Shown piece by piece: positions 40,382 through 44,073 of a DNA stretch of 64,000 bases (position 1 is its first letter; every line of letters starts with the position of its first letter). Source of the stretch: Pirellulales bacterium (GTDB taxonomy: Bacteria > Planctomycetota > Planctomycetia > Pirellulales > PALSA-1355); the NCBI GenBank assembly GCA_022844125.1, contig JALHMI010000011.1, forward strand, positions 1 to 64,000. The letters run 5' to 3'. A model generated the notes under the pieces. That model saw only the letters and a list, made by a program, of their open reading frames with translations, ran no database searches and was not told where the DNA came from. A program made the translations under genes and the position numbers.

Positions 40382-40409
40382 TTGACTGCACCCCGCGCGG
40401 GGCTATAAT
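40382..40409 (+). promoter_or_regulatory. Near-consensus sigma-70 promoter for the structured leader
   Basis: TTGACT (40382-40387), a 16-base GC-rich spacer and a perfect TATAAT (40404-40409). The expected transcript start is about 40416, which leaves some 218 nt before the ATG of the response regulator gene at 40634. It is the best-matching promoter I found in the window. The 210 bases between mnmG and this promoter show nothing beyond a weak CCCAG/CTGGG hairpin near 40229-40256. Confidence 0.75.
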
Positions 40410-40415
40410 AGGGCC

Positions 40416-40633
40416 CGATGGCAATTTCGGTAAATTAGTAGGAACCGAACAAACGCACTGCTGAAACCGATTGGTCAATTCACTAGGGACGCAGCAAGCT
40501 AAAAGGGCTAGGTTCCGTCGAGCGTGACATGGAGGACTAGGAGCTTCCGGTGATTTCCGCCGTCGTGAAATCACATGGAGGTCCCGCTTAGACTAGCCTT
40601 ACCATCGGCTAGGGAGAGGGGTGGTTAGCAACT
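40416..40633 (+). promoter_or_regulatory. Long structured 5' leader, possible cis-regulatory RNA
   Basis: Several perfect stems follow the promoter. Stem 1 is GGAACC (40441-40446) with GGTTCC (40511-40516), enclosing TGCTG (40459-40463) with CAGCA (40492-40496) and a small ACC/GGT hairpin. Stem 2 is GTGATTTC (40550-40557) with GAAATCAC (40567-40574) and a 9-base loop. Stem 3 is CTAGCC (40593-40598) with GGCTAG (40607-40612) and abuts the purine-rich ribosome site GGAGAGGGG (40613-40621). A 9-base direct repeat ACATGGAGG occurs at 40527 and 40573. A 17-codon frame (40575-40628) ends five bases before the regulator's ATG. This suggests translational control or an independent small RNA; pairings are by eye. 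Confidence 0.6.
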
Positions 40634-41218
40634 ATGAAAACTGTGTTCACCACAGGCGAAGCCGCGAAAATTTGCAAGGTCAGCCAACAGACCATTATCC
40701 GCTGCTTCGATTCCGGACAACTGAAGGGATTTCGGGTGCCGGGCAGCCGCTTTCGCCGCATCCCCCGCGAACAACTCTACGCGTTCATGCGCGACAATGG
40801 CATTCCGACCGATGCCCTGGAAAGCGGCAAGCGGAAAGTGCTTGTCGTAGACGACGACCAGGAGTTGGTGGAGCTGATCGTGGATGTCCTGGAGAAGGAC
40901 GGCCGCTTTGAGATCCGCACCGTCAACAACGGCTTTGACGCCGGCATGATGGTGAAGGAGTATCACCCCGACGTGATCGTTCTCGACGTCATGCTGCCGG
41001 ACATCAACGGCAAGGAAGTTTGCCAGCGGGTTCGCACCGATAAGTCGATGGACGATGTGCGGATCATCTGCATCTCGGGGATGGTCGAAGAGGACAAGAT
41101 TGAAGATCTCAAAGCCTCCGGTGCCACCGACTTCCTGCACAAGCCATTCGAAGTGGAAACGCTCATCGAACGCATGTGCACGCTGCTCGATATGGAAACG
41201 CTGAGCTCGCGATCGTAA
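40634..41218 (+). CDS. Response regulator with N-terminal excisionase-type HTH
   Basis: A 194-residue regulator in reversed domain order. Residues 3-58 are an excisionase/MerR-like helix-turn-helix (TTGEAAKICKVSQQTIIRCF, then a FRVPGSRFRRIPREQL wing). Residues about 67-187 are a REC receiver: the acidic pocket VVDDDQE, the phosphoacceptor aspartate in VIVLDVMLPD (about residue 117), the switch residue in ICISGM, and the lysine in LHKPFEV. Typical response regulators place REC first. The histidine kinase gene follows closely (start within 76 bases), forming a two-component pair. Expression is probably governed by the long leader upstream. The target genes are unknown. Confidence 0.88.
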   Translation: MKTVFTTGEAAKICKVSQQTIIRCFDSGQLKGFRVPGSRFRRIPREQLYAFMRDNGIPTDALESGKRKVLVVDDDQELVELIVDVLEKDGRFEIRTVNNGFDAGMMVKEYHPDVIVLDVMLPDINGKEVCQRVRTDKSMDDVRIICISGMVEEDKIEDLKASGATDFLHKPFEVETLIERMCTLLDMETLSSRS

Positions 41219-41294
41219 GGCTGAATTGCGGTCGCGCAGGTTTCTCGTGCGACGGGAACTGGGTGCCATAGGTAGCCGCCGATGCGGCTCACCT

Positions 41295-42800
41295 ATGTTT
41301 CGCTACCGGTTTGAGTCGGTGCTTTCGCCCATGCACACGCTGCCTCCGTTGATCGCCAAGTCGGGAACCTTTCGGTTGCCGCTGGTCGATAGTACCGCGG
41401 AGCGGCTGGTCGGCGCGCTGCTTGAGCCGCAACTTGAGCGCCGGCGCGAGGCGTTTCGTCTGTCGCTCGCCCGCGATCCTGCGCTGGCCGTGTGGGCGCT
41501 CGTGCATGCGCGCGATCAGCCGGAGCACGTGACCGCATATCTCAGCGGCTTGGCGGGTTGGTTGGCGGCTGCTCCACTGAAACTGTTCTCGGGGATCACG
41601 CTCGCCTTCGCGGAATCGGAGCAGGAAGCGCTGCGCGAGGAGTTTGCCGAGCCGGCCGGCTGTTCGCTAGCCGTGGCCGAATTGGCCGCACAACTTGCGA
41701 GAGCTGCGCGCGGGAACGAAGACCGGGCTTATCTGTTAGGCATGGTGCATCTCGGAGCTGCGTGGCTGCAAGAAGTATCTGATGTCGATGCACCGCATGG
41801 CATAGGTGAATTTCTGCCGGCCTGGTTCCTGCGAGATTCATTGCAGCTTTCGCAGGCTCGAGCGGAGCAATCGATTGAAGCGGCCTGCGTCGCACAGGCG
41901 ATGGCCGCGGTATGTTCGCACGATCGCGACCATTGGCGTGCCCTTGACTGTGAATCCACTCACTGGATTGGTCGCTGGGAAAGGCTCGGCAGCGAGTGGG
42001 CCAGCCATGGGCCCTGGGCCGCACGGCTGGCAACGCTGATTGAGCAATTGACGGTGAAAGAACGGCTGGAAACCGATTTTCACCACACACTTGAGAATGC
42101 CAAGCTCGAAGCAATCAAGGAATTCGCCTACGGCGCGGGTCACGAGATCAACAATCCGCTGGCGAATATCTCGGCCCGGGCCCAAACGCTGCTTGCCGAA
42201 GAGACGGATCCCGAGCGCAGGCGAACGCTGGCCGCGATCAATGCCCAGGCATTCCGGGCGCATGAGATGATTGCCGACATGATGCTGTTTGCGCGTCCGC
42301 CGCGGCCGAAGTTGCAGCAGGTGGAACTCGGCACGCTGGTGCGGACTGTCGGTGTCGAGTTGACCGCCCAGGCGACGGACCAGCAGACTGAACTGGCCGT
42401 TCGACTGCCGCACACGGTGGTCACGATCGAGGCAGATCCGACGCAGATCGCCGTGGCGCTCCGCTCACTTTGCGTCAATTCGCTGGAAGCTCTCGTGCGC
42501 GGCGGAAACGTCAGTGTCGAACTGATTGCTCCAACGAGCCAAGAGCCGCGTGCGCGGTTGTGTGTGACTGACAACGGCCCCGGCATTCCATGCGATGGGC
42601 GCGAGAAAATCTTCGAGCCGTACTACAGCGGCCGTGAAGCGGGGCGCGGGCTCGGCCTGGGGCTTTCGAAGTGCTGGCGGATCGTCACGATGCACGGCGG
42701 CGCCATCGTTGTGGCAGATGCCGACGGCTCGGGCGATAAGCCATCCGGCGCGGTCTTTACGATCTATCTGCCAGTCAGGCGCCCCGCTCGGCTGAAATAA
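41295..42800 (+). CDS. Cytoplasmic sensor histidine kinase
   Basis: A 501-residue kinase with no transmembrane segment. The N-terminal 260 residues are a helical sensor of unknown type (leucine/alanine-rich, with HDOD-like flavour but no decisive motif). The dimerisation/phosphoacceptor motif is YGAGHEINNPLANISARAQ, histidine at about residue 283. The ATPase domain has an N box in LCVNSLEALVRGG, G1 in VTDNGPGIP, and G2 in GRGLGLGLSKCWRIV. It should phosphorylate the preceding REC-HTH regulator, whose stop is 76 bases upstream. Start is uncertain: ATG 41295, ATG 41331 and a TTG at 41226 are all in frame. Confidence 0.88.
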   Translation: MFRYRFESVLSPMHTLPPLIAKSGTFRLPLVDSTAERLVGALLEPQLERRREAFRLSLARDPALAVWALVHARDQPEHVTAYLSGLAGWLAAAPLKLFSGITLAFAESEQEALREEFAEPAGCSLAVAELAAQLARAARGNEDRAYLLGMVHLGAAWLQEVSDVDAPHGIGEFLPAWFLRDSLQLSQARAEQSIEAACVAQAMAAVCSHDRDHWRALDCESTHWIGRWERLGSEWASHGPWAARLATLIEQLTVKERLETDFHHTLENAKLEAIKEFAYGAGHEINNPLANISARAQTLLAEETDPERRRTLAAINAQAFRAHEMIADMMLFARPPRPKLQQVELGTLVRTVGVELTAQATDQQTELAVRLPHTVVTIEADPTQIAVALRSLCVNSLEALVRGGNVSVELIAPTSQEPRARLCVTDNGPGIPCDGREKIFEPYYSGREAGRGLGLGLSKCWRIVTMHGGAIVVADADGSGDKPSGAVFTIYLPVRRPARLK

Positions 42801-42953: not shown

Positions 42954-43011
42954 TTGATGCTGGACAGAACCCTTCGGCGCCATTGAACCCGCACCCGTGG
43001 AGCCATGCATC

Positions 43012-43305
43012 ATGAAGTATCTCGCTGCAGTTGTCGTGCTGAGCAGCCTTGGGCTGGCCGCACCGGCCAAAGCCCAGGAAGTCATCGTTACGGAACCGGT
43101 GGTCACTTATTACGCCCCGAGCGTTCCGGTGACGACTTACTATGCGCCCACGTACTCGACCTACTACGCTCCGAGCGTGCCGGTCACGACGTACTATTCG
43201 CCCGCTTACACCAGCTATTACGCTCCGGCCGTGGCCTATGCTCCGGCCTCGTACTACTTCGTACCCCCGCGCGTTGCCCGCCGCTGGGCTCGCTGGGGCT
43301 ATTAG
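43012..43305 (+). CDS. Exported YYAP-repeat protein
   Basis: A 97-residue protein with a signal peptide (KYLAAVVVLSSLGLAAPA then KAQ) and a mature part made almost wholly of degenerate repeats around T-Y-Y-A-P: VTYYAPSVPV, TTYYAPTYSTYYAPSVPV, TTYYSPAYTSYYAPAVAYAP. It ends in a basic PRVARRWARWGY. No family match is recognised. The aromatic-Ala-Pro unit is shared in form with the FFAP-repeat protein encoded 219 bases downstream, so the two are likely paralogous in design. A surface or envelope structural role is plausible but unproven. ATG 43012 is preferred over an in-frame GTG at 42997 because it gives a proper signal peptide. Confidence 0.75.
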   Translation: MKYLAAVVVLSSLGLAAPAKAQEVIVTEPVVTYYAPSVPVTTYYAPTYSTYYAPSVPVTTYYSPAYTSYYAPAVAYAPASYYFVPPRVARRWARWGY

Positions 43306-43524
43306 TGGCTGTCGAGAACTGCGGTCCGATTGCTGGGGGTTGAGTGGCTAGCGGCCTAGGACCCCGCCGACAATGGATCGGCGTTTCGGGGTAATTGGGG
43401 GTGCCGCGCGCTTGGCGTAAGCGGATTTCCTGCTGTTGGATTGGTCCTTGCGTAGGAAATCAACTCGGAATACTTGCAACACCAGGCCGCGTTGTTAGAG
43501 TGGACTTCTGAGGAGGACTTCATC

Positions 43525-44073
43525 ATGCGACGCTGCTTTGCTTTCAGCCTGCTTCTGCTCGCCGGATTCGCTATGCCCGCGGCTGCCCAGTCGTGGGTAA
43601 CATTTCACGCGCCCGTGGCTACTCCGGTGACGACGTTCTTTGCACCAACGACGGTCAGTTCGACTCCGGTGACGACGTTCTTCGCGCCGACGACGGTCAG
43701 TTCGACTCCGGTGACGACGTTCTTCGCGCCGACGACGGTCAGTTCGACTCCGGTGATGACGTTCTTTGCACCAACGACGGTGAGTTCGACGCCGGTGACC
43801 ACGTTCTTCGCGCCAACGACGGTCAGTTCGACTCCGTTCTTTGCTCCGACAACGAGTTCGGTTTCAACAACCACATTCTTCGCTCCTGCGGTGACAACCC
43901 CGGTAACTACGTTTTTCGCACCGAGCGTCGTTGCTTCGCCGGTGACAACGGCGGTTGCCCCGGTTGTGGTGACTCCCACGCAGATGTTTGTCGCTCCGAC
44001 GACCTGGGGCAATCCAAGAGTCTTCGTGGCTGGGCAACCCATCCGCAATGTCTTGCGCGCGATTACCCCTTAG
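43525..44073 (+). CDS. Exported FFAP-repeat protein with tandem repeats
   Basis: A 182-residue protein: signal peptide (CFAFSLLLLAGFAMPAAA then AQS), then five exact-length 14-residue repeats with consensus TPVTTFFAPTTVSS, further degenerate copies (TPFFAPTTSS, VSTTTFFAPAVTTP, VTTFFAPSVVAS), and a unique C-terminal end (TQMFVAPTTWGNPRVFVAGQ, then a short basic tail). The sequence is Thr-, Val-, Pro- and Phe-rich, without cysteine in the repeats. No known family is recognised. Strong AGGAGG ribosome site precedes ATG 43525, unusual in this window and suggestive of high expression. A strong intrinsic terminator follows. Function is unknown; a cell-envelope fibre or adhesive is a reasonable guess. 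Confidence 0.8.
   Translation: MRRCFAFSLLLLAGFAMPAAAQSWVTFHAPVATPVTTFFAPTTVSSTPVTTFFAPTTVSSTPVTTFFAPTTVSSTPVMTFFAPTTVSSTPVTTFFAPTTVSSTPFFAPTTSSVSTTTFFAPAVTTPVTTFFAPSVVASPVTTAVAPVVVTPTQMFVAPTTWGNPRVFVAGQPIRNVLRAITP
43621..43830 (+). repeat. Five tandem 42-bp coding repeats
   Basis: Exactly five copies of a 42-base unit, starting at 43621, 43663, 43705, 43747 and 43789, each coding for a variant of TPVTTFFAPTTVSS. Copies 2 and 3 are nearly identical in DNA sequence; the others differ by a few substitutions. A shortened sixth copy begins at 43831. Recent slipped-strand or recombinational expansion is the likely origin. Confidence 0.92.

Follow-up and report, generated by a model that had tools for sequence, protein, structure and literature searches.

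Organization of the Locus and Promoter

The window (the whole 64,000-nt stretch of Pirellulales DNA that was analyzed) contains at 40634-41218 the gene of a response regulator with an N-terminal HTH_17 domain and a C-terminal receiver domain (Pfam PF12728 and PF00072). It is followed at 41226-42800 by the gene, with a putative start codon, of a histidine kinase (Pfam HisKA and HATPase_c), the likely partner of the regulator; both genes lie on the forward strand, as do the promoter and the parts of the leader described below. Over the first 80 residues, orthologues of the regulator shared 82-95% identity within the class, and the value was about 65-80% in other classes. The regulator gene is followed by a homologue of the kinase gene in 62 of 62 loci, and in 37 mnmG was detected upstream of it. 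The genes of two small proteins, both probably secreted and both containing tandem repeats (YYAPSVPVTT; TFFAPTTVSSTPV, 42-bp DNA repeat, 91% match), lie at 42997-43305 and 43474-44073.

A single strong sigma-70 match was found between mnmG and the regulator gene, consisting of TTGACT (40382-40387) and TATAAT (40404-40409) separated by a 16-nt spacer (11/12 matches), which is the near-consensus promoter that a first-pass annotation of this DNA had placed at 40382-40409. In the aligned leaders this promoter takes the form TTGAC-N16/17-TATAAT, and its position is the same in most leaders of the order; in Planctomycetales, the leaders carry a TTGACCGA/GATACAATCGG version of it. The segment 40416-40633 is most likely the 5′ UTR of the HTH_17-receiver regulator mRNA, with transcription predicted to start near 40416. 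No terminator was found when one was sought in the leader, and the conserved structure continues into the gene's ribosome site, both of which argue against the free small RNA that had also been proposed. From 5′ to 3′, the aligned leaders are composed of the promoter, 9-bp repeats, a variable middle, a box ACANGGAGG, a helix PA with a variable tip, a helix PB and the ribosome site GGGAGAGGGGTGG.

Conservation and Distribution of the Leader

Other genera of the family share 80-83% identity with the leader region, and when 246 genomes of the order were searched by DNA, 46 proved to have the leader at the same place. A covariance model (R1) of the 3′ half of the leader (40527-40633) retrieved the window copy from the source genome (6.4 Mb in 27 contigs) with an E value of 9e-19 and no other good copy, the leader being present there once. 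Within the order, one copy each was found in 89 of 196 genomes, and all 29 fetched R1 matches from other genomes directly precede the same HTH_17-receiver regulator; a gene of this type also stood downstream of the leader in the loci read.

Comparison with Rfam gave no match for the window leader, even at E ≤ 10, and no relevant match for the leaders of 11 relatives. Judged from sequence comparison, the leader is a real, conserved, structured RNA missing from Rfam 15. The idea of an undescribed cis-regulatory RNA, put forward in the first-pass annotation, is thus supported: homologous leaders occupy the corresponding position throughout much of the order, they covary, they are single-copy and always precede the same gene, and no Rfam family matches at E ≤ 10. 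The resemblance to the c-di-GMP-I (GEMM) riboswitch suggested at the same time was abandoned, since there was no Rfam match and the GAAACC string is not conserved, being absent from the nearest relatives (L003-L005).

Helices of the Leader

Three perfect stems had been read from the window sequence, GGAACC/GGTTCC (40441 and 40511), GTGATTTC/GAAATCAC (40550 and 40567) and CTAGCC/GGCTAG (40593 and 40607), and all of them are present at these positions. The last is the conserved helix PB (40593-40612), which directly adjoins the ribosome site as had been pointed out; helix PA (40540-40585, with 40540-40549 paired to 40576-40585) is conserved too, GTGATTTC/GAAATCAC being part of its variable tip; and GGAACC/GGTTCC, which closes the middle region (40441-40516), is kept in close relatives only. 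The 225-nt fold had an energy of −73 kcal/mol (z −1.97), only mildly beyond that of shuffled sequences, 7 of 200 of which folded equally well, so that the folding energy, weak when taken alone, is insufficient for the case and the comparison between genomes is decisive.

In a test alignment of 31 diverse sequences, 84.8% of the cells of PA were paired, with compensatory changes at 9 of 10 pairs, and 95.2% of those of PB, with compensatory changes at 4 of 6 pairs; these counts lean somewhat towards the structure because it was drawn by eye on the same alignment. Despite this bias, slid and shuffled controls scored far below PA and PB: the covariation of PA was 0.627, compared with 0.315 ± 0.028 after shuffling, and sliding of the partner strand destroyed the signal. 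The search for compensatory changes that the first-pass annotation had called for yielded two strongly covarying helices. Pairing of the PB loop (ACCATC) with GGTGGT in the ribosome site, as a pseudoknot, was rejected, being kept in a subset of the sequences and without covariation (71% paired versus 68.7% in shuffles). In the middle of the leader, the block GTAAANGGNTTTACGGAC recurs in L006-L026 and may form another hairpin, and in a group of relatives (L101, L104, L124 and L130) the tip of PA carries a conserved GCCGAC.

CsrA-Type Sites

Upstream of PA lies ACATGGAGG (40527-40535), an ACA-N-GGA element which is a predicted CsrA site. The same string occurs again at 40573, within PA, where it is not conserved; this repetition had been noticed on first reading and is confirmed, its CsrA-type nature having escaped recognition. 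To avoid bias, the ACANGGAGG box was left out of a second model (R2), with which 97 loci were searched; this gave 60 non-redundant matches. CANGGA was found just upstream of 53 of them, against 2.5 expected and a maximum of 9 in 1000 shuffles. The profile at this place reads A-C-A-N-G-G-A-G-G, with 0.65, 1.12, 0.87, 0.08, 1.37, 0.98 and 1.04 bits for its first seven columns. This is the CsrA consensus, ACA and GGA being 100% conserved in the SELEX ligands of CsrA (PMC7652899). A second predicted site is the ANGGA overlapping the ribosome site in AGGGAGAGGGGTGG (40611-40624).

Among 148 leaders, which are all related by descent so that the motif counts are not independent, CANGGANG was found upstream in 89 (10.9 ± 3.2 in shuffles; 5.2% of flanking windows) and the total of ANGGA was 390 versus 186 expected. 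ANGGA lay within the last 30 nt in 119 of the leaders (80%), as compared with 8.3% of 324 control ORFs, 1.5% of the control genes having CANGGANG in that interval (control starts are putative). After clustering, CANGGANG remained in 28 of 61 lineages and ANGGA at the ribosome site in 40 of 61; in leaders of regulator orthologues from outside the class both motifs were at background (2/17 and 3/17). Hairpin loops contained ANGGA in 76 of the 148 leaders (30.7 in shuffles, maximum 43), the enclosed fraction being 0.319 versus 0.228 when permuted. Strict ANGGAN hexaloops closed by at least 4 pairs occurred in 21 leaders (3.1 expected, maximum 8), loops with permuted letters being rare; hairpin loops with ANGGAN in textbook form are seen in several lineages, and L054 has both sites as such hairpins (GATACACGGATGGTATC and TCACAGAACGGATTGTGA). 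Stems that enclose CANGGANG, whatever the size of the loop, were not above the level for permuted flanks, and in the source genome the upstream GGA has an unpaired probability of 0.5-0.9 and is not in a strong hairpin loop. Some regulators of the MQKTVYTTGE type (L133, L136-L138, L139, L143 and L151) are preceded by leaders with extra GGA hairpins near the 5′ end, such as GGGAA-ATGGAT-TTCCC, and with CAAGGATGG instead of the 9-bp repeats.

A short upstream reading frame, ATG GAG GAC TAG, was considered and discarded: the T of the ATG falls on the random N of the R2 profile, where C, T, A or G may stand, and hence there is no conserved start codon.

CsrA and FliW Genes

In the source genome, 14 proteins of the CsrA family scored above the Pfam cut-off (genes at, e.g., C7:12518, C9:97187 and C3:342837), and a FliW gene lies just upstream of one of the csrA genes. 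From 2 to 16 CsrA proteins were found in each of the 61 sampled genomes of Planctomycetia (61/61), as compared with 1-3 in most of the phylum's other genomes that have CsrA; a survey from 2020 reported one CsrA homologue in most genomes (PMC7366521). In the csrA genes L175, L176 and L179, CANGGAGG overlaps their own ribosome site, an arrangement which suggests auto- or cross-regulation by CsrA.

Direct Repeats Downstream of the −10 Box

The first transcribed bases contain 9-bp direct repeats, GGCAATTTC GGTAAATTA GTAGGAACC (40420-40446), which had been overlooked in the first-pass annotation. In 53 leaders self-similarity peaked at period 9 (0.539, the next best period giving 0.376), and in the aligned leaders the repeats have the form GGYAAnnYC and start about 10 nt past TATAAT. 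The top fold match of a structure model of the regulator HTH (moderate confidence, pLDDT 75.7) was the BldC-DNA complex 6ama (TM 0.67, 28% identity, E 0.0098), and BldC binds 9-bp direct repeats head-to-tail (PMC5859096). Given a BldC-like HTH and 9-bp repeats, a DNA operator for autoregulation is the likely role of this part. Alternatively, and with a lower ranking, it may act as an RNA hairpin, as the repeats overlap a possible 5′ hairpin TTCGG/CCGGA, which covaries only modestly. A coding reading of the repeats (GGC AAA TTC GGT) was rejected, as no consistent start codon was present upstream of them. An attempt to define a regulon from the 9-bp repeats in the source genome was dropped: 39 matches were obtained versus 15 for the reversed control, and 10 of the 11 checked lay in long open frames.

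Proposed Mechanism and Alternatives

The leader is most likely a CsrA-controlled 5′ UTR in which two helices would bring the upstream CsrA site near the ribosome site. As its best-conserved letters are those recognized by CsrA, it probably sets the amount of regulator made in planctomycetes. According to this model, at least one CsrA-family protein of the genome would bind ACA-N-GGA at 40527-40533, and most of the 80 nt that follow would be taken up by the two hairpins of PA and PB. The second RNA-binding face of the CsrA dimer could then contact the ANGGA overlapping the ribosome site (40611-40615) and prevent initiation, thus repressing rather than activating translation. The two GGA are 79 nt apart linearly, with about 13 nt left unpaired once PA and PB are folded. 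In E. coli, CsrA bridges sites 10-63 nt apart, 63 nt being the measured limit (PMC7652899), so that bridging fits only with both helices folded, in which case one dimer could hold both GGA and cover the ribosome site. Release might come from FliW, an RNA sponge or a lower level of CsrA. At the level of transcription, the regulator would bind the repeats just past the −10 box head-to-tail, like BldC, and limit its own promoter. Taken together, such control at two levels, CsrA acting on translation and the regulator's own operator on transcription, appears to us reasonably probable.

The letters of the upstream box also bear on what else the leader might be. GGAGG is Shine-Dalgarno-like and present in 46 of the 60 R2 matches without an accompanying conserved start codon, and a hairpin is possible in the first transcribed bases, as would suit a structured leader that works without CsrA, GGAGGA serving as a stand-by or decoy site for the ribosome while the helices maintain an open ribosome site or make the mRNA more stable. 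A Shine-Dalgarno role leaves the conserved ACA and the random N before GGA unexplained, however, and the same applies to the GGAUG or GGACG that relatives have instead of GGAGG and to the ANGGAN hexaloops; we regard this explanation as unlikely. Quite improbable is a ligand-binding riboswitch, in which PA, PB and the conserved ACANGGAGGACU strand would form a small-molecule pocket gating the ribosome site. Covarying helices next to a ribosome site, together with a conserved single-stranded box and no match to a known family, are what it would predict, but few letters beyond ACA-N-GGA are conserved, hairpin tips and junctions vary freely, and the one free letter of the box is exactly the position at which CsrA is tolerant. 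Moreover, a single gene is involved, transport or biosynthesis genes never being downstream in the fetched matches.

That the whole leader or a fragment processed from it sequesters CsrA as a sponge, CsrB-like but within a 5′ UTR, seems very improbable: there is neither a terminator nor a separate small RNA, only one copy is present per genome, and the best sites are positioned to control the gene itself. The excess of ANGGA noted above, the seven GGA triplets of the window leader and the extra ANGGAN hairpins near the 5′ end of some leaders of the order would be in its favor. As for CsrA control of the regulator, a wider version of it is doubtful, namely that the leader founds a family of RNA scaffolds holding two CsrA sites at a fixed distance, that CsrA paralogues read the leader differently and that the regulator is the hub of a multi-CsrA network with BldC-like feedback.

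If CsrA control is correct, this would be the first predicted CsrA target with a site-level anatomy in Planctomycetia, a class with 2-16 CsrA paralogues per genome. The leader, being conserved, short and single-copy, is a ready probe for which CsrA paralogue binds what, and it represents a covarying RNA family absent from Rfam 15.

Comparison with Known Systems

Rfam contains neither this RNA family nor its anatomy; the likeliest mode of action is one already known from other phyla. The short GAAACC...GGGACGCA string shared with the c-di-GMP-I riboswitch (RF01051) is found in the window only; unlike a member of that family, the leader has no Rfam match at E ≤ 10, its helices misfit and GAAACC is not kept in L003-L005. 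The HTH fold and 9-bp direct repeats recall Streptomyces BldC (6AMA and 6AMK; PMC5859096), but here the HTH is fused to a receiver domain, the site is just downstream of the −10 box of the regulator's own gene, and the repeat is GGYAAxxTC instead of AATTXXXX(C). With the control of hag by CsrA and FliW in B. subtilis the source genome shares CsrA and FliW genes side by side; the predicted target, in contrast, is not flagellin, and the genome has 14 CsrA homologues. Closest in design are the CsrA-repressed leaders of the E. coli glgC type (PMC7652899), which likewise have ACA/ANGGA upstream and one site over the ribosome site, and for which bridging by the dimer is the natural mechanism. The present leader differs from these in that an ordered two-helix scaffold, kept by covariation across the order, parts the two sites, and in that its predicted target is a response regulator, in a phylum for which our literature search found no described CsrA target.
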